This document shows positions 820 to 11,858 of a stretch of 64,000 bases of DNA, piece after piece (the stretch's first letter is position 1; each line of letters begins with the position of its first letter). Under the pieces are notes generated by a model. It did not search any database and had not been told where the DNA came from. It saw only the letters and a program-made list of their open reading frames with translations. Made by a program: the position numbers and the translations under genes. The DNA lies in assembly GCA_031763025.1 (NCBI GenBank), contig JASSKH010000010.1, positions 9,751,427-9,815,426 on the forward strand, written 5' to 3'. The stretch is from Macrocystis pyrifera. Its lineage: Eukaryota > Sar > Phaeophyceae > Laminariales > Laminariaceae.

Positions 820-1220
820 CTAAAGGCCGTCGCGCTCCTTGTACCATATGTGTGCTCCGGAGGGTAGGATGGTGGTGCTGAAGTTGTGGAGCCAAAGGCT
901 GCGGGAGACCAAGGCGTAGCCTGGGGCGAGGAAGATTTGTCCTTGAGATCGGGCCAGTTCGCGGTGAGCGGCGCCGATGCGCATCTGGCGGTAGAGGCGG
1001 TTCGTCTGGCGGTGCTGGGTTGGTGATCGTGACCAGTACAGTAGGATGTGGCGCCGGAAGTGTTGAAGGTCCAGCTCGCGTTCCCAAGAGGGGCTGAGAA
1101 GTCCAGTCCAGTGAGTTTCGTACAGAGCGGCGATGACCCCGCCGCGGCCGCGTACGAGTTGATGGCCAGTGATCTGCTCGACCTCGAGGCGTTCCGGTGG
1201 AGGAGTGACGTCGTCGACGG
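820..1220 (-). mobile_element. Chromodomain-like C-terminal tail of the Ty3/Gypsy integrase
   Basis: The minus-strand frame reads a segment with RGRGGVIAALYETHWTG followed by SWERELDL and HILLYW. This matches the chromodomain pattern of an aromatic-rich beta sheet, a YxxxW core, a WExExxL helix start and a terminal YW. Such tails are known from chromoviral Ty3/Gypsy integrases, where they steer insertion towards modified chromatin. Position after the integrase core fits. Confidence 0.65.
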
Positions 1221-1599
1221 TGACGTGGTAGGGTGGGGACTTGGCGGCAGAAGCTGTGAGCACGTATGTAGTATGGTCCGCGGGAAGATGCTTGGGGATG
1301 TCGCTGGTGTCGTCGGGGTTCCGGCAAGGTTTGCATCGTTGGACGGAGACGCGTGGCTTGGAGTCCCGTCCCGGAAGGTCGGATGGAAGGTCGAGGAAAA
1401 TTAGCTTGTCGTGAAGGGGGAGATTGTCGGGGGTGTTTGAGGCGGGCGTCGGCCCTACGGCGAGGACCTTGAAGGGGCCATTCCAGTTCAGAGAAAGCTT
1501 CGTCTTGAGAACGGTTGCGTCGGTGCCCTTTTTGATGCCTTGGCGGATGGTTGAGGCGTAGTTGTAGACCCAAATCCAACCGCCTACGGTGAGGGGGGG

Positions 1600-2460
1600 G
1601 GTGCTAGGAGGGCGGCCATGATGGGCGCGTTGCGGCGCTGAAAACGCGAGACGGTGAGTCGGTGTAGTTCGCGGACGAGGGAATAGGCGCGTCGTTGTCG
1701 GTCGGTGGCGAGGTTGATGTAAACCAGGTGATCGCGGTCCAAGCTTTGGTGACCGCCGATGTTGTCGGGTTCGAAGACCGAGAGCGGGAGGCGAGGAAGG
1801 CGGCCCATGTGGATTTCGTTAGGTGCAAGCCCTGTGGCGGCGTTCACGGAATTGTTGTAGGCCGACGACACGTGTGGGAGCAGCACGTCCCAGTCGGTCT
1901 GTTGTTCGTTGCCAACCATAGGAGCATTTAGGCCAGCACATGGTTGACGAGCTCGACGCCGCCGTTGGTGCAGGGGTGGTAGGAGCTGGTGTTGACCTTG
2001 TGGATGCCAAGGCATTCGTAGACGATGTTCGCGAGCTTGGAGGTAAAGTGTAGTCCGTTGTCGGAGAGAAGTGTAACCGGGCACCCCCAGAGAGGGATGT
2101 ACTCGTTCAGGAAGATGTCGGCAGTGCCGGCGGCCGTGAACTGCGCCGCTGAAACGGCATACATATCGGCGCGGCGGCTGAAGCGGTCTGTGAAGAGGAG
2201 GATGTGGACGTTCCCGCGCGGCGTGAGCGGCAGGGGCCCGAAGTAGTCGACGCTGACGGTGATGCCAGGCCCGTTGGGCAAAGGAAGAGAAAGGATGGGC
2301 CAACGAATGGTGTGCCGGGAGGTCTTCCGCGCCTGGCATTGAAGGCAACGGCGGATCCACAAACGGACGGAAGCGTCCATGCCAATCCACCAAAAGAAAC
2401 GTGCCAACATGCGGACCGTTCGGGTGACTCCCAGGTGTAGAGAGGTGGTGGCGTGGCATG
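1600..2460 (-). mobile_element. Integrase region of the Ty3/Gypsy remnant
   Basis: The minus strand carries an N-terminal zinc-finger-like stretch (CLQCQARK at about 2.33 kb, with histidines upstream), then the catalytic core with VDYFGPLPL, LLSDNGLHF (about 2.05 kb) and GGVELVNH (about 1.95 kb), giving the DD-E triad order of retroviral-type integrases. It belongs to the fossil element and is not intact as a unit. Confidence 0.85.
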
Positions 2461-3379
2461 TGTTCAGCACCCAGGGGCGCATTAACATTGGCACGTAGAC
2501 GCGTGGGGTAGAGGGGGCGGGTGGTGGTAGGCTGTTCCCGGATGAGGTGATGGGTGGTCGTTGGACCAGGAGGGTGGTTTCGTCGTCGGTACGGTGTAGC
2601 TTGCTTTTGGAGGCAAGAGTGAGGACGTCCGAAATTTGTGGGCGCCGGGCCGGGGGGATGAAGTCCAGGAGGTCGTGCGGCGTGGGGGGGGGGAGTCCAA
2701 CGACAGGAAGCGGATGGTGGCGCAGCACATGGGCTCCGCGCGTTGTTCTCGCGCCCAGTCTTTGTAGGTGTAGTGCTCGACGCAGGCGAGGAGGTAGGGG
2801 TCGTCATCGGGTTCGACGACGGGCTCCGGAAGGGGCACTGACGGTGGTGTTGGTGCCGGCGGAGAGGGCGTTGTTGAAGGGGTCGGTCTTTGCGTAGTGG
2901 GCGCCAATGGCTTGGGTGGCGGTCGGCGTCCAAACCTGTAGTCGGCTGTAGGCCGAGGGGTTCCCGCGGCAGCGGCGACGCGATGGCGGGTCCGAGAAGA
3001 TATCAGACCTGAAAGGGCTGGTGTCGTGGCGCCAATGGTGGGCGGCGGAGAGACGACGGACGGCATGGAAGCCGAGCCTGGAGGAGCTCCGGTGTTCACG
3101 GCGGCATTCTCGGTGCCGGCAAGCTGTCCGGTGGTGGAGTCGCTGGTCGCAATAGGCCCGATGAAGGTGTTGGTTGCGGGGGAAAGGGTGGGGTGCTCCA
3201 TACGTGGTCCGAGTAGGCGAAAGTCGCGGAAGTCGTCGTCGGTGAAGGGAAGCGGCTGGACGGTTGGGATGGGTCTGGAAGGGGGGGACACGAGCCCACC
3301 CAAGCCGATACCCGGGGTGGAAGGGTCGTTCGGCGCGAAGCCGCAGGGGCGGATGAGGTAGATGCCGACGGTGTCGGCG

Positions 3380-3960
3380 CCAGTAAGGCGGTTGCGTCCG
3401 GTGCGGTCGGCGTCGGTGGCTGGTTGGGGAAGCCGGGAGAGGAAGTCGGCGTTGCCGTTGGCCGTGCCCTTCAGGTACTGCAGCGTGTAGGTGTACGCTG
3501 AAAGGAACTCGAGCCAGCGCCGGACACGGGCGTTATGTTCTCCGACCTTGGCAATGTTCTCGAGCGCCTTGTGGTCCGAGTAGATCTGGAAGCGGGTGGA
3601 CCATAAGTGTCCGCGGAGGCGTTTGATCGCCCACACGATGCTCCCGGCCTCGAGGTCGAGGGGTGTCCATGAACGTTCGGAGTCCAGGGTGGCACGGCTG
3701 ATGAAGAGGATGGGGCGGACTGAGCCGTGGGCTTGCTCTTGCTCAAGGGTCGCTCCGAAGCCGTCGATGCTAGCGTCGCAGTAGAGGCGGAAGGGGCGGG
3801 AGTTGTCGGCGACGGCGTCCCAGTCGGGGTAGACGAGGATAGGCGGTTCGGCAAGAATGGCGCGTACGGTGGTTTCCATGGCGGGGGTGAAGTCGAACGT
3901 CGCGCCTTGCTTGAGTAGAGCGTTGATGGGGCGCAGACGTCGAGAAAGGTTTGGCAGGAA
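3380..3960 (-). mobile_element. RNase H domain of the Ty3/Gypsy remnant
   Basis: Read on the minus strand, the frame gives LYCDASIDGFGATLEQ (about 3.77 kb), then RSWTPLDLEAGSIVWAIKRL, YSDHKALE and GTANGNADFLSRL. These are the standard Ty3-type RNase H landmarks: the CDAS aspartate, the E of the EA-helix, the SDH-K motif and the N-x-ADxLSR end. It follows the reverse transcriptase directly, as usual. Confidence 0.9.
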
Positions 3961-4069: not shown

Positions 4070-4720
4070 CCAGCGGAAAATGGTGTGTCCCAGGAAATCG
4101 GCGGTGGTGGCGCCAATTTTGGCCTTGGCGGGGGAGAGTTTGAGGTGGTGCTTCCGGAGGCGTGCGAAGAGGGCTCTCATGTTGGCGACGTGGTCGGTGG
4201 GGTCGGGGTCGAAGACGATGATGTCGTCGAGGTACGCGGCGACGCGTTCCAGGCCCTTGATGACCTCGTTGATGACCTTCACGAACCAGCCCGGGGAGGC
4301 GCTGCTTCCTTGCGGCATAACAAGCCATTCGAACAGCCGGTTGGAAGTGCAAAACGCCGTCAAAGGGATGGTGTCCTCGTCTATGTTGATTTGGTGGAAC
4401 GAGGAGACCAGGTCGAAGAGAGAAAAGATGCGACCTTTGCCCAAGGAGTCGAGGACTTCGTCGACGCGGGGGATGGGGAGTTGCCCGAGGGAGCTGATGG
4501 CGTTGAGCTTCTTGTAGTTGATCGTAATCTGGACACCTCCATCCTTTTCGGGGATGGCCACCATAGGGCTGGAGTATGGCGACGTAGAATGTTGGATCAG
4601 GCCGGCGGCCAGGTACTGGTCTAATACCGCGTCTACCTTCTTGGCGAGGATGGGGTTGATCCTGTAGGGGCGGGAAGTGACCGGTGCGCTGCCCGGGGGT
4701 ACGGTGATCTTGAACGGCAT
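4070..4720 (-). mobile_element. Reverse transcriptase domain of the Ty3/Gypsy remnant
   Basis: The minus-strand frame contains the fingers motif SPYSSPMVAIPEKDGG, then IPRVDEVLDSLGKGRIFSLF, the FEWLVMPQG segment and the palm motif YLDDIIVF at about 4.22 kb, followed by DFLGHTIF. These are diagnostic of Ty3/Gypsy reverse transcriptase. It is one of the best-preserved parts of the element. Confidence 0.95.
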
Positions 4721-5649
4721 CAGCGAGCACGAGCCGAAGTCGGTTTTTGAGGTGGAGAAAACGTCCTGGAACTCGCAGAGGACGTCTCCCAGGTTGTTGA
4801 TCACCGACGGGGTCCATCCAGAACCGTGCAGGTCGAAGTTGACGTCGCGCAGGTGTAACGGCAGACGTTCCCAGAGGTCGAGGAAGCTAACCCGTTGGTC
4901 GGCGTTGAGGCGTGCAAGGAGTTGTGGGCACGGGGCTTTTGGTGCGGTAGGAGGGTCGTCTGTCGATGGGCTCTGGTCGGCCACGGGGATGTTGTCGTGG
5001 AGGGCATGTACATCCGGAATCGGAGGGGGATAGGGAGGGGCCAAGGAAGGGTGTCCAAGGGTGGAAAGTGGTACCTGTACCAGTGGGGAGCAGGAGGTCC
5101 CGAGGAGGTCTCCCGGCTCGAGATCGGTAGATCCAGATAGTGGGACCGTTTGGTATCCATCGGAGACGAAAATGGCCGTGTCGGAAAGGGGGTTCTCGCG
5201 GGGGAGCATGTTCACCATGTACTTCCCGGTAAATGCTGGAGCGCCTGATTGACGCGCCAGGTTAACCTTGACGAGCTTGGGGGTGGAGGAAAGCGAAATA
5301 GCTTTGTTGCCGGCGAATCGGAGGTGGTAGACGTCGTCAATGGAACGGTCGTCGGGAATGAATGCTGAGGCTCCGTTGGGGTCATGGTTCAAGGAGAGCT
5401 CACCGCGGGTTCGCCGGGGAAGTTGGTGGTGGGGGGGGGGGTGGGCTGTTGCTGGAGCGTGGTATACGAGCGTTGCTCGAAGCGCATCCAGCTGTCTCGT
5501 CCCAGAAGGATGGGGTGCTGCATGGTTCCTGCAGGAACTACGCAGGCCCATACTGCCAGGGCAGTGGTGGGGGACTGGAGGCGCATAAACTGGATGCTTA
5601 AGCGGATGGAGACGGAGGTGGAGAGGGGAGCTGAAGTGCCGAAACCTCC

Positions 5650-5900
5650 CCATGAACGGGGGGAACTGTGCCGTTCGCACGCATCGGTGGCTGCCTGGGA
5701 AGCCTTCAGTTGTTCCACCGCGGTTGCGGTGATACACGACTGGGGCGAGCCGGTATCGAGCAGTGCCACGAGTTCGCGCCGCGTAGTGGCGGTGGGGCTG
5801 CTGTGCACGAGTACTTTCGTCGTGAACGACGCGTCGTCGACGGTAATGATGCCGCTTGTAAGGCATGGTCCGTATTCCGGTATCGGCGGGCGGCGGGTAG
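5650..5900 (-). mobile_element. Aspartic protease region of the Ty3/Gypsy remnant
   Basis: The minus-strand frame reads ELVALLDTGSPQSCIT at about 5.76 kb, the ALLDTGS catalytic loop of a retropepsin-like protease. It lies between the NADAR domain and the reverse transcriptase, the expected slot for protease in a Ty3/Gypsy polyprotein. Confidence 0.75.
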
Positions 5901-6149
5901 GGAGGTGGCTGTGGGCTGCGGTGTTGATGGTGGATACTTGGGCAAAGTGGCTGCTAGGGTAGGCGTCGGGGGTAGACGGCGGTAAGAGTGGCCCAAGTGG
6001 AGAGGTAGGCGGTTGCCATGGAGGGGTCGGGCTTGTTTCGTGGATGCCGTCGGCTGTGGGGGAGACCCGGGTGTTGTCGGTGGGAGCGGGTGATGGCTCC
6101 GGGTCGTGAAGATGGGGAGGAAATGGAGGCTGGGCGGAGCGATTGGCGC

Positions 6150-6630
6150 CTAGGCTTTCTCGAACGTCCATCAGTATCCTGCCCAGCAGATTCCGACCAC
6201 GCCAACGCGTCGGGTCGCAGGCGTCAGGATGGTCGGCCTTGAAGCCAATGCCCCAGATGAGGTCGTGTGGGCTGGCCTCGGCGATGTGTTTGTCGCCGGT
6301 TGCTATTAGCTCCTCCCGTAGCTCCGGGTGTTGGCGGAACTTGGAGAAGTTTAATGTTGAGGACGATGGTGTAGCGGTGTCGCTCCCAGACCATTTCGTC
6401 GAAGTCGCAAACGGTTCGCCCAAGTGCTTTTTGGCGGGCCGGGTCGCGGGTCGCTTTGATGCGGCGCTCAGTTGTGATGTCCCCGAAGAGCGCGGCCTTC
6501 TGCGCCATCATCATCTGCTCAGCGCAGTTGTATGTGACGCCATCGTGTTCGATGTCGCACAGGTACCACTGCGAAAAGACCGAAGAGGAATCCCAGAAAA
6601 AGTGGAAAGATGAGGCGGCATCTGCGGTGA
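6150..6630 (-). mobile_element. NADAR (DUF1768/YbiA-like) domain inside the Ty3/Gypsy remnant
   Basis: About 155 residues match the whole NADAR fold pattern: an SVFSQWY start, a DGVTYNCAEQMMMAQKA helix, ALFGD, RRIKATRDPARQKALGR, a VWERHRYTI segment, KFRQHPELREELIATG, EASPHDLIWGIG, and WRGRNLLGRILMDVRESLG at the end. NADAR proteins are known from YbiA-like riboflavin-intermediate glycosidases and as partners of ADP-ribosylation systems, where some remove ADP-ribose from guanine bases. Here the domain sits between gag and protease, so it was probably once part of the element's polyprotein. Its role in the element is not known to me. It shares the fossil state of its host element. Confidence 0.85.
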
Positions 6631-7539
6631 CGTGTTCAGTTGATGGCGTCTTTTGTGTTGGGGGTGGAGGGCGACGATAAGTACTCCTATCGCCGCCTGG
6701 CGTCGACGGAGGTAGAGTCAGCAACGATCGAGCGGCGCTGACCGGAACCCTCGTGTTCGCGGGGGAATTGCTCGGCAAAGCCGAGGTACCGGGGCGGTCC
6801 TCGCTGGGGCTTATAAGCCGGGCGGGACGACCCTCAAGCGCCCTATCGTCCAACTTTTGGGGAACAGGGGCATACTCGCTAGGGGATGCCACACCTGGGG
6901 TCCGTGTCCACGCTTTGCGCGAAGCAGGCGAGGAGGACGGGTCAGGGGGCTCAGGGCAGACCCTGGTCGACGTTGGTCGCGAGTCTTCCCGTATTTAAAA
7001 CGGGACTGCCCCTCGAGCTCAGGGACAGCGGTGGTGTCAACACCGTGGCAGCTGGAGGAAGCCCGTCGTTCGCGGGTTCAACGCTGTCACAATAAATGCG
7101 CGCATGCTGGAACAAGCGCGTATGGAGCGGCCAATATGAGGCAGGCTCAGGGGGCGATGGCCCGGTAGACGAAACAGTAGTTTCGTGTGAACCGGAACCG
7201 CTGGTAGCCGGAATCGTCGAGACGTTTCCCAGGGTAGCAATGTCTGGGGTCTCGGCAATAGTCGGCAAGCAGCGTTGCTCACCGCCAGAAGACGTCGAGT
7301 GGAGCATCCCGGTGGGGCTCGGCGTCTTGGCCTCCTCCCGCCCACACCTCAAGGCAATCACTTGGGCAAGATGATCAGTGCTTGAACAAGTGGCTGTGAA
7401 ATGGGCTGGGGGGGGGGGGGGCATGGGAGGGCAGGGGTCGGGGAGGCGTGATGCACGTGATTTACTCGTGCGTCCTGGGACCCTCGGGTGCTCGCAGTAG
7501 ATGCTGTTGGTGGAGATGCGGTAGTTGCTCCACCATCGG

Positions 7540-8020
7540 CTTGTCAGTTGGTGCGGAAGGTGCCCGGCTGCCGTTGGTTCGGGTTGGTACCCGAGTGGTT
7601 GCTGCCCATCCGCATGTTCGCGGGGGCGGCAGGTGCGGAAGTGTTGGTCGCAGGGGTATGCACCGTCAATGCTGAAGACGAGGGGGCAGGCTCGATGCGT
7701 TGTCGATGTAACTGTTGTCCTGGCGACTGTCGGTTGCCGTTGTCGTATGGCCGACCGTTGTTGTAGCGCCAGTTGTCGGAGCGCCCGTTGTTGCCGCGGT
7801 AGTTGCGGGAGTGGTTCTGGTTGGAGCGGTTGATGTTGTAGTTTCCGCTGCGGTTGTTGTGATGGTTGCCTCGACGGCTGTTGTTGTTGTGGCGGTTGGA
7901 GTTCCGCTCAAGGTTGTGCTCGTAGTGTCCACGGCGGTAGGAGAGCATCCTTCGTTGCCATTGGCGGTAGGCGTGTCCGACTGCCGGGCTGAGGATGCCG
8001 GACGTGTTGCGAAGCGCAGG
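7540..8020 (-). mobile_element. Gag-like Asn/Arg-rich tail of the Ty3/Gypsy remnant
   Basis: A minus-strand frame opens with RQWQRRMLSYRRGHYEHN and continues into a long Asn/Arg/His-rich low-complexity stretch, then a Ser/Pro/Ala-rich stretch. Basic Asn-rich tails of this kind can bind nucleic acid in place of the CCHC knuckles that many Gag proteins use; I see no CCHC knuckle here. Assignment as the nucleocapsid-like part of Gag rests on its place at the 5' side of the element. Confidence 0.45.
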
Positions 8021-8420
8021 GGGCAGGTCTTCATACTATGTCTGTGCCATTGCAGTTGGGGCAGTGATCACCGTGAGCTCGTAGGGCTTGGGCGCGGGAC
8101 ACCACGACGATCCGCCTCCGTCATGGGTTCCGTAGTGGCTCTCGTCATCAGGCTGCGCGCTCGTAAGGAGGGGGGCGCTGTCGTCGTGGGGGGCGTTGTC
8201 GAGGTGGAAAGGGGCGGTGTCGCCGGTGATGGCGTGTCCGTCCTGGGGCTGGTGGTTGGGGGTGTCGGGGGGAGCGGGTCGCGGCTCGGTTGGGTGCCGG
8301 GGGTGCGGGTCGAGGCTCGGTTGGGTTCCACACGTAGCCGCGGCCGGCGTTCGAGTGAAAATACCGTGGCTCGAGTAAAAGGGTACGGGCGGCCCCGATG
8401 AACTCGAAAGAAACACCTTC

Positions 8421-9000
8421 GTGGCGGCGCGGGCCAGAACGAAGGTGATCGACGGATCGCAGTCGGGTGTGAAGAGCCGATATACGCGGTGTGCCTCTAG
8501 CGAGTCGACGCCAGATGTGAAACGGTGGCCGCTCTAGGGTAGTGGTAAGGGTAGTGGTAAGGGACGCAGGTGGTTCTGGCAGCTGGAAAGCAGTGCTTCG
8601 CTTCTTCTGATTTAGATCTTCTTATTGATGGCGAGAGCTGAGGAGGTGCTCTGGTGGAGAAGTGAGAGGTAGGGGGGCGGGACTCGACGCCCAGATATAC
8701 TCGTCCCACCCCACGCCACAAGCTCTCCTAAATTCCTCTTATCTGATGTACGCCTACAGAACTTTCCTATGGCTACCGGTCGTTCTTCTGCTAATATAAG
8801 AACTTCTCACTTCGTAGTCCTATCTGCGTCAAGGAACATTACTCTCGTCTAACGGGCTATCCGCCCTACGGAACATTCCTAAAAGAACCTTACTCTCGAC
8901 TAACGGAATATCCGCCGGGTTAGTCCATTCTTTGGAATATTCTCGTATTCGTGAGACTACAAGACTGCAATGTATTATCTATATCTATAGCCCATGAATA
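8421..9000. other. Possible leader or LTR region of the Ty3/Gypsy remnant
   Basis: No gene. The words ACTCTCGTCTAACGGGCTAT and ACTCTCGACTAACGGAATAT form a short direct repeat about 60 bp apart (about 8850-8930). The place, just 5' of the gag-like segment, suits a leader or LTR, but I found no second copy on the far side of the element. Confidence 0.35.
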
Positions 9001-9885
9001 CTCCACCCATATCACAACGGACAGCAACTGTGGCAAAAACAATGAAAATGAAACCGAACATTTCTGAAAGAAATAAAATCCCCGTCCCCTTTCGTGTCAT
9101 AATTTACTACCTGGTTGGAACACCGTATACCGGTCAAAAAGAAAAAAAAAGTGAAGAAGAAAAATTCAAACAGCAGAGCTTCTCTCTCAGCCTCGTACGC
9201 CGCCCGCCCCTCTCGCGACCATGTCGCCACCGATTCAGTCCGGGTAAAGCTTTCCTCCCCCTCTTCCACAGTGAGCCCCGTCGCCCGCCTCGCGTGAAGC
9301 CCGGTGCTCACCGTGGACCTCGACGCAAGCTCTACAATGTTGGTGCTCATTCGGGGTACCTCCCTCTTGTGACTTTTAGCCCGGTCGCAAAAATAAGCAC
9401 CGCTTGAATATTATCTTACAGTCCCGAACGACCCTTAAATATTCGTACGTACTCTATCAAAAATCACAAATGGAGGCCAGACAGAGCCTATTGATGCATC
9501 CCTCGTGTCTCGAGGCACACGCGACGGCTAGGCACGAAAGCGGCGACCGCGCTCCTTGCAACTCCCCCTCTACCCGCCAGCATCCGCTGACACCCGCGAC
9601 GGTGCCGGGTTCGCCCGCTCAACCAAATGTGCTCGGAGTACACGCACGCACGCACACGAAACGAGAGAAGAGCAATAATGGAGAAAACAAAGACCCGCTG
9701 GAAGGGTCCGGCAAGTAATAAAAGGAGGCGATTTCCAAGCGGGAGCTCTGAGAGGTCAGGGATGTACCAACCGAGCACGCTCAGAGATCGAGATGTAAGT
9801 AAGTAGTTCTATGTCAGTCTGCCAGCCCTGTTGTTGCAACCTTCTTGGACGAGCCTTCATCTGTTACTTCCTACGAAGCATGTCA
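9001..9885. other. Intergenic stretch, no gene seen
   Basis: Short open frames on both strands lack recognisable motifs. A small (CACG)n-like run lies near 9640-9660. Nothing else stands out. Confidence 0.5.
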
Positions 9886-10400: not shown

Positions 10401-11220
10401 TACTCGACCACATCACATGATCTACGCGAAATGCCACTCTGGCCGGCCAGAAATTGGGCTACTGCTGAATTGTAGAAAGTGCTACGAAAAGCGGATCTTG
10501 GTCGGCCAGAGAATAAAGGCTGTTGGGGTGCTAATATTTGCAGTAGATCAAAGCGGTTCTTACATTGATGTTCAAAGTGGTAGCAGTGCTATAGTATCGC
10601 CATTAGAGAGGGATCGGTGGGCGTGATTTGTTTAGCTAAGCATATGACTAACATTTTATTGATTGCGCCAAGTTCACAGCAGCGCGACAGGGCACGGGTG
10701 CCTTGTCACATCATTGAAAAGGATCGTGACTTAAAACAAGCTGTGTAATTAGAAAAGTCCTCATGTTGCACAATGTTGTTCACATCAGTTGTTAATACAA
10801 GACGTCAGGACAAAAAATGAGAACGAAGCAAGACAGATACCGAGCAACCATTAGCGGCAACTATTAGTAGCAAGTAATATAAGCAGATGAGACAGTACAC
10901 CGATATTTCCACCAGCCTGGGAACTTTTTCTTGTTGCAGGGAGTTGGTTGGCAAAACCCGATGAAATCGAAGAGCAGTCGGGAAGACTGAACCGTCTGGG
11001 CGATATAAATAAAAGGGAGGGAAAAAGAAACCTGCGCCCACGGCTTGTCCAGAAGCTGAAAGTAAAGGTGAGACAAAAACCGAAAAAAAGCACGTGACTG
11101 GCCATCAAACCAGGTGCCCCGCTCAAGCCTCGCAACTGACACAAACTACATCGCCTGCCACCTAATTAAGAACCAAAGAATGCACAAAATTGACGAGAAT
11201 AATGAACAACTGAAGGAAGA
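10401..11220. other. Intergenic stretch, no gene seen
   Basis: AT-richer DNA with short frames only. I see no motif, no long repeat and no RNA gene. Confidence 0.5.
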
Positions 11221-11246
11221 CAAAAAAAAACGAGATGAATGGAAAC

Positions 11247-11620
11247 CGTCCCTCCCCCTCCCCTCTCCCTCCCCCCCCCCCTCCCCCACCCTCCCCCTCC
11301 CCCTCCCCCCCTCCCTCCCCCCCCCCCCCCTCCGACCCCCCTCCCTCCCTCCCTCCTTCCCCCCTCCCTCCCCTCCTCCCTCCCTCCCTCCCTCCCCCTC
11401 CCCTCCCTCCCTCCCCCCCTCGCTCCCTCGCTCCTCCCTCCCCCCTACCTCCCCCCCCCCCTCCTCCCCTACCTTCCTTCCTCCCTCCCTCCCCCCTCTT
11501 CCTCCGTTCCTCCCTCCCTCCCTCCCTCCCCTCTCCCTCCCTCCCCCCCTCCCTCCCTCCCCCTCCTCCCCCCCCCCCCCCCCCTCCCCCCTCCCCCCTC
11601 CCTCGCTCCCTCCTTCCAGG
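11247..11620 (+). repeat. C/T-only tract of about 370 bp
   Basis: Nearly every base is C or T, mostly CCCTCC-like, with only a handful of A or G. The minus strand is therefore G-rich with many G-runs, which could form G-quadruplexes or, as a mirror-like purine/pyrimidine tract, triplex DNA. Pro/Ser/Leu-rich frames that run through it are a by-product of composition. A shorter tract of the same kind returns at 11957-11988. Confidence 0.95.
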
Positions 11621-11644
11621 ATTCTACACTATTTGACCTTGTCG

Positions 11645-11858
11645 TGGGCATGCCGTGGCATTGCCATGGTACCGCCCATGGCATACCACGGCATCACCAC
11701 GGCATCCCATGGCGTGGCATAGGATTCCATGGTACGCCGTGGGGATTGCCATGACATGCCATGGGTAGTACCATGGCAACCCCCGCGGCTACCCCCACGG
11801 CACTCCATGGGAACCACGGCATGTCATGGCAACCCCTACGGTACCCCAATGTCCACGG
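11645..11858 (+). repeat. CCATGG/GGCAT-rich degenerate repeat block
   Basis: The words CCATGG, GGCAT, CACGGCAT and GCATGCC recur on both strands through about 210 bp, in partly palindromic arrangements. It sits between the C/T tract and the telomeric array, which gives the trio a subtelomere-like look. Confidence 0.8.

Follow-up and report, generated by a model that had tools for sequence, protein, structure and literature searches.

NADAR domains between gag and protease in Ty3/Gypsy retrotransposons of the giant kelp Macrocystis pyrifera, with a putative role in ADP-ribose removal

The window analyzed here, a 64,000-nucleotide stretch of the Macrocystis pyrifera genome, contains on its minus strand the greater part of a retroelement, whose features were delineated using open reading frames (ORFs), Pfam profile matches, piecewise blastn, alignment to another copy of the element, L012, and motifs recognized by eye. 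The 5' LTR, with TG...CA ends, lies at 8516..9016 (-); it emerged from piecewise blastn as a 502 nt match at 98.8% identity (6 differences, no gaps) to a partner 3' LTR at C190:9750037-9750538, which precedes the first base of the window by about 0.9-1.4 kb and hence lies outside it; the ends of the 5' LTR were trimmed by one base by eye. Beside the 5' LTR is a 4-bp target-site duplication, CCGT, at 9017..9020 (-), and the same four bases were seen by eye beside the 3' LTR. Comparable TG...CA LTR pairs flanked by short target duplications, CAGG and TAGA, were likewise recognized by eye in L012 and in L009, a copy of a second family (family A below), their LTRs differing at 4 of 501 and 16 of 280 sites, respectively. 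The heptamer TGGCGTC, 2-3 nt past the 5' LTR (window ~8502-8515), is a likely primer binding site by eye, and the same likely site is seen in the family-A copy L032, from position 5472.

Downstream of the LTR is a gag remnant, broken across different frames, at 7544..8416 (-), evident from ORFs and from blastn against L012, followed by the low-complexity linker that forms the N-terminus of Pol at 6602..7424 (-), which was delimited from ORFs and shows 28-35% identity between families. After the NADAR domain described below comes an aspartic protease at 5455..5868 (-), identified by alignment to the L012 protease and by its LLDTGS motif, read by eye. It is followed by a reverse transcriptase (RT) at 4079..4555 (-) (PF00078, E 1e-25), an RNase H at 3493..3870 (-) in a frame different from that of the RT (PF17917, E 5.7e-28; PF17919, E 1.6e-18) and an integrase region at 1973..2494 (-), which holds an H2C2 zinc domain (PF17921, E 3.5e-16) and an integrase core that falls below its cut-off (PF00665, E 4.8e-6, 27.2 bits versus 32.6). 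The Pol order protease-RT-RNase H-integrase is common to the window and L012, with the protease assigned by motif and the integrase core below cut-off, and the element is a Ty3/Gypsy-type LTR retrotransposon. The C-terminal tail of Pol at 820..1263 (-) resembles a chromodomain or Tudor domain by eye only, as does L012:7352-9634, neither with library confirmation; the window tail gave no Pfam match at E 0.01 and no PDB match at E 1, and a Chromo match of 16.2 bits, below the cut-off of 25.1, was obtained in L010, a copy of another family. Thus, the same-strand protease, RT, RNase H and integrase of the preliminary description are borne out, whereas the chromodomain-like tail it added to them is confirmed by neither Pfam nor PDB.

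NADAR domains were recognized by the Pfam profile PF08719 with its curated cut-off of 35.1 bits. In the window the domain lies on two minus-strand ORFs. The first, 6224..6892, carries the N-terminal part at 6353..6601 (-) (profile positions 1-96; 69.5 bits, E 5.1e-19), and the second, 5389..6423, carries the C-terminal part in another frame at 6151..6354 (-) (profile positions 96-162; 84.0 bits, E 1.8e-23). Together the two pieces span the whole profile, which agrees with the initial reading of a full-length NADAR; however, the reading frame shifts at about 6354, so that the domain of this copy does not form a single open frame and is broken. Its C-terminal piece is in frame with the protease (row C190:9756881-9757792). 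With these PF08719 matches, the LTR pair and the CCGT duplication, the proposed placement of a NADAR domain between the gag and protease of a Ty3/Gypsy element stands, and the domain is located within the element's own LTRs.

Although recent, the copy in the window is defective: the start of gag is missing, NADAR is split, and RT and RNase H are in different frames. It measures about 10.4 kb versus about 14.6 kb for the same-family copy L012, and blastn indicates that it lacks a leader of about 4.1 kb together with the start of gag, both of which are present in L012. The absence of the leader is seen when window 8476-8516 is set against L029:7592-10000 and L012:1-1673, and other copies of the family show as much as about 1.7 kb of this leader; the two stretches of the L012 leader contain no ORF longer than 139 aa apart from one that runs into gag. 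Elsewhere in the window, a degenerate tandem repeat at 11217-11676, with 29 overlapping copies, can be read as Ser/Pro-rich frames.

A PF08719 search of the genome (223 contigs totaling 537,376,219 bases, the longest observed measuring 26.5 Mb) gave 1264 first-look candidates, and all 150 that were scored exceed the Pfam cut-off; by eye, 126 of the 150 have a stop-free match, a figure biased by the fact that the scored candidates are the best ones. The NADAR-bearing elements form three families, A, B (that of the window) and C, with the domain in the same slot in each. Slot queries that joined NADAR to the protease through the linker in a single frame were run with stops read through, so that some of the places recovered hold one or more stops. 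With the family-B query, 98 of 108 scored matches extend from residue 13 or earlier to residue 269 or later, the protease beginning at 245; with the family-A query, 78 of 111 extend from residue 16 or earlier to 255 or later, the protease beginning at about 231 (both by eye). The first 23 of 116 matches to the family-C query cover at least residues 6-363, the remainder being C fragments and family-B places. In one family-C copy, a gag with a CCHC knuckle precedes the Pol frame, which starts with the linker followed by NADAR. Many copies were located by their NADAR score, which favors those with an intact domain. The profile search that the preliminary description had proposed recovers, in this genome, multiple copies with NADAR in the same gag-protease slot in three families, and its suggestion that an element group captured the domain holds for many copies in at least three families. 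The alternative of a NADAR gene inserted by chance beside a single element is refuted, and its probability is negligible: there are 1264 candidates, the slot is the same in three families, and the domain lies inside the LTRs. As a separate observation on distribution, contig C200 (22.0 Mb, the second longest seen, about 4% of the genome) holds 32 of the 108 family-B matches versus 8 of the 111 family-A matches, by eye. It might correspond to scaffold 2 of the giant kelp, whose second half is described as gene-poor and possibly sex-linked (PMC10498591).

Family B also includes a derivative that has lost its polymerase. Seven of the 11 family-B copies read at 10 kb (L013, L014, L016, L017, L021, L023 and L027) lack a 1.17 kb segment that holds the RT and most of the RNase H, and they retain the gag, NADAR, protease and integrase regions. 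The deletion junction lies at L021:5484-5485, and the other six copies align with L021 straight across it. When a 200-base query spanning the junction was used, all 40 scored places, among 560 candidates, matched it end to end, and in 33 of these 40 a NADAR match, in some cases partial, is present 1.6-1.8 kb upstream (by eye, among the matches listed). This derivative was probably mobilized in trans, using RT from elsewhere, while still carrying NADAR.

The best PDB match of the element NADAR is a NADAR protein, 8bau (E 5e-18), with Escherichia coli YbiA (2b3w) detected at E 1.6e-7. The Phytophthora nicotianae enzyme is reported to hold ADP-ribose via E43, K50, R79, W89, R93, E125, D130 and W133, in some cases through water (PMC11543638), and we take 8bau to be this enzyme, as the numbering in its alignment agrees with the residues listed there; the pairing of residues rests on the 8bau alignment. 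Across 45 distinct copies (17 A, 11 B and 17 C) the eight positions are nearly invariant: W89, E125 and D130 are kept in all 45, and E43 (with one gap), K50, R79, R93 and W133 in 44 each, four of the five departures falling in one decayed family-B copy, L053. The window copy stands outside the 45 because its NADAR is split, and all eight residues can be read by eye across its two pieces. Glutamate, rather than aspartate or histidine, at the position of E125 is described as the mark of the YbiA subfamily (PMC11125620), and on this residue the element NADARs are of the YbiA type in 45 of 45 copies. Members of both NADAR subfamilies are reported to hydrolyze guanine-linked ADP-ribose in vitro (PMC11125620, PMC11543638). 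The kept residues suggest an active hydrolase, and they leave its substrate unfixed because E. coli YbiA acts on riboflavin intermediates (PMC11543638).

Comparison between the families points to selective constraint on the domain. NADAR identity between families A, B and C is 46-55% in a set of 44 copies, a decayed family-B copy being the one of the 45 left out, and alignments of the domain span 148-149 residues and contain no more than one gap. With one copy per family, identity is 51-52% for NADAR, 58-67% for the protease, 74-85% for RT and 26-44% for the linkers flanking NADAR. The between-family pN/pS, for which synonymous sites are near saturation, is 0.39-0.46 for NADAR, 0.32-0.42 for the protease and 0.58-0.82 for the linkers. 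It is 0.16-0.26 for RT, and 0.15-0.26 for RT and RNase H together, so that NADAR is less constrained than RT. NADAR thus stands out as a constrained block amid freely varying linkers, its constraint being nearly protease-like. Within families the picture differs: pN/pS of NADAR is 0.99 in A and 0.55 in B, with the downstream linker lower at 0.42 and 0.21, and selection on NADAR is not clearly indicated by these noisy counts. We do not use them as support because the reference sequences have themselves accumulated changes, the copies were selected by NADAR score, and the downstream linker comes out below every domain. If taken at face value, the lack of a clear within-family signal would fit a NADAR that no longer needs catalysis, having become either a structural or binding part of Pol or a passenger; we regard this as distinctly unlikely, as the contact and catalytic residues are retained in families between which about half of the positions differ.

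The reading that we prefer, and to which we give about even odds, is that the window holds a defective copy of a brown-algal NADAR-bearing Gypsy lineage in which the domain, once freed by the protease, would be packaged in the particle as an ADP-ribosyl or N-glycosyl hydrolase. The position in Pol, the low-complexity linkers and the neighboring protease suggest release inside the particle. Accordingly worded as a scheme, NADAR would be translated as part of the Pol polyprotein, the element protease would cut it out through the flanking linkers, and the freed domain could then be packaged in the particle. There it might clear ADP-ribose, most likely from guanine in the element RNA or cDNA, or else from a host-modified protein, and such removal would keep the element intermediate usable.

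Two other functions deserve consideration. The authors who described related elements in Ectocarpus propose a role in RNA processing (PMC12477816), under which NADAR would act on the element's own RNA intermediates, such as NAD-derived or primer-linked groups, rather than oppose a host defense. NADAR is described alongside RNA-repair systems elsewhere (PMC9503650), which is in keeping with this proposal, but the activities measured for NADAR reportedly consist of releasing ADP-ribose from guanine and cleaving N-glycosides, and we consider the proposal unlikely. A narrower form of the preferred explanation is that NADAR serves in counter-defense, undoing ADP-ribosylation that a host transferase has placed on the nucleic acid or capsid of the element. 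The retention of the ADP-ribose-contact residues fits this idea, as do accounts of NADAR elsewhere as an antitoxin and a proposed viral counter-defense factor (PMC11125620, PMC9503650, PMC11543638). So does the divergence between families B and C, in which NADAR identity (51%) is below that of the protease (67%) and RT (85%). This greater divergence may reflect faster evolution or a swap of the domain, and rapid change is also expected of a weakly constrained domain. Further, six-frame genome searches, which are blind to introns, found no DarT match at E 0.001 and a single exon-sized PARP match; neither result decides the matter, both searches being intron-blind. On balance, counter-defense appears quite unlikely. 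Returning to removal of ADP-ribose within the particle, its boldest consequence, that the element packages an active NADAR which strips ADP-ribose from guanines of its own RNA or cDNA and thereby points to an anti-retroelement ADP-ribosylation defense, so far unseen, in brown algae, is a speculative claim to which we likewise assign a low probability. If it were true, the faster interfamily divergence of NADAR would be a sign of such conflict.

With regard to provenance, 194 of 222 pattern matches in bacterial and archaeal genomes encode relatives, of which 80, with 43-54% identity, were kept; 46 of 72 pattern matches in viral contigs do so too, and the C domain matched 671 phage records and the B domain 690. 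The collections covered were bacteria, archaea, phages and viral contigs, and since eukaryotic proteins were searched only within the PDB, the source of the element NADAR may also be eukaryotic. An 87-row tree was built from 52 of the 80 bacterial and 25 of the 46 viral loci, both sets chosen by eye, together with nine element rows and one oomycete fragment, a sample that leans to look-alikes because the relatives were fetched by patterns made from the element NADARs. The element domains are placed in this tree with YbiA-like proteins of bacteria and viruses around them; families B and C form a sister pair (96/85), to which A lies close, though not with firm support. When the oomycete row was omitted, a tree with the elements as one clade was not rejected (p-AU 0.296), and this clade was seen in 40% of 200 bootstrap trees. 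A comparison with bacterial NADARs had been suggested at the outset; in this tree, single capture is neither rejected nor shown. By eye, the Pol linkers that flank NADAR are alike, upstream and downstream, in the three families, which favors one capture. A search for a cellular NADAR gene of the host used TIGR02464, with 150 of 1213 candidates scored and 19 of those 150 fetched as NADAR-sized stretches; the one stretch viewed with its surroundings lies in an element, and a host gene may be hidden elsewhere in the genome. That the window domain is itself a host gene beside one element is rejected, given the slot in many copies and its location between the LTRs.

Taken together, a group of Gypsy elements has kept an ADP-ribose enzyme in Pol through deep divergence and in many copies, some of them recent. 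This renders a biochemical question testable: does a retrotransposon need ADP-ribose removal, and from what? If the target is the element's own nucleic acid, then brown algae would offer a case of ADP-ribosylation-based conflict with retroelements. We know of no such conflict.

Among known NADAR proteins, 8bau shares all eight ADP-ribose contacts with the element domain, but is a stand-alone oomycete protein, and its fragment in the tree forms a very long branch apart from the remaining rows. E. coli YbiA also belongs to the NADAR family, but it too stands alone and is linked to riboflavin intermediates (PMC11543638). NADARs of RNA viruses, likened here by their description, are likewise part of one polyprotein with a polymerase, but these are positive-strand RNA viruses (PMC9503650). 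A retrotransposon-borne NADAR is also reported in ORF1 of a Tx1 LINE of Crassostrea gigas, but this is an animal LINE and its domain is termed divergent (PMC12477816). The closest system is a Gypsy lineage of Ectocarpus, Gypsy-12_Ec32 and its kin, published in 2025, in which every family is reported to have a YbiA-type NADAR at the Pol N-terminus (PMC12477816). In literature searches this was the sole relevant precedent among the matches listed for NADAR and Gypsy; those listed for NADAR in kelp included no relevant report, and none was found for DUF1768 and transposons. The earlier statement that no standard retroelement with this domain is known therefore does not hold. The architecture is already in print, and with the Ectocarpus lineage reported, the kelp, as a second brown alga with it, extends a known oddity. 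In common are the Ty3/Gypsy type, a YbiA-type NADAR at the Pol N-terminus upstream of the protease and blastp relatives that are mostly bacterial (PMC12477816). The kelp element comes from another species, and the C-terminal chromodomain reported for Ectocarpus is unconfirmed in the kelp copies. The kelp element very probably belongs to the same brown-algal lineage, and we infer common descent with Gypsy-12_Ec32. Relative to what that report describes, the kelp genome adds the division into three families, the ADP-ribose-contact residues, the constraint between families and the RT-deleted derivative.
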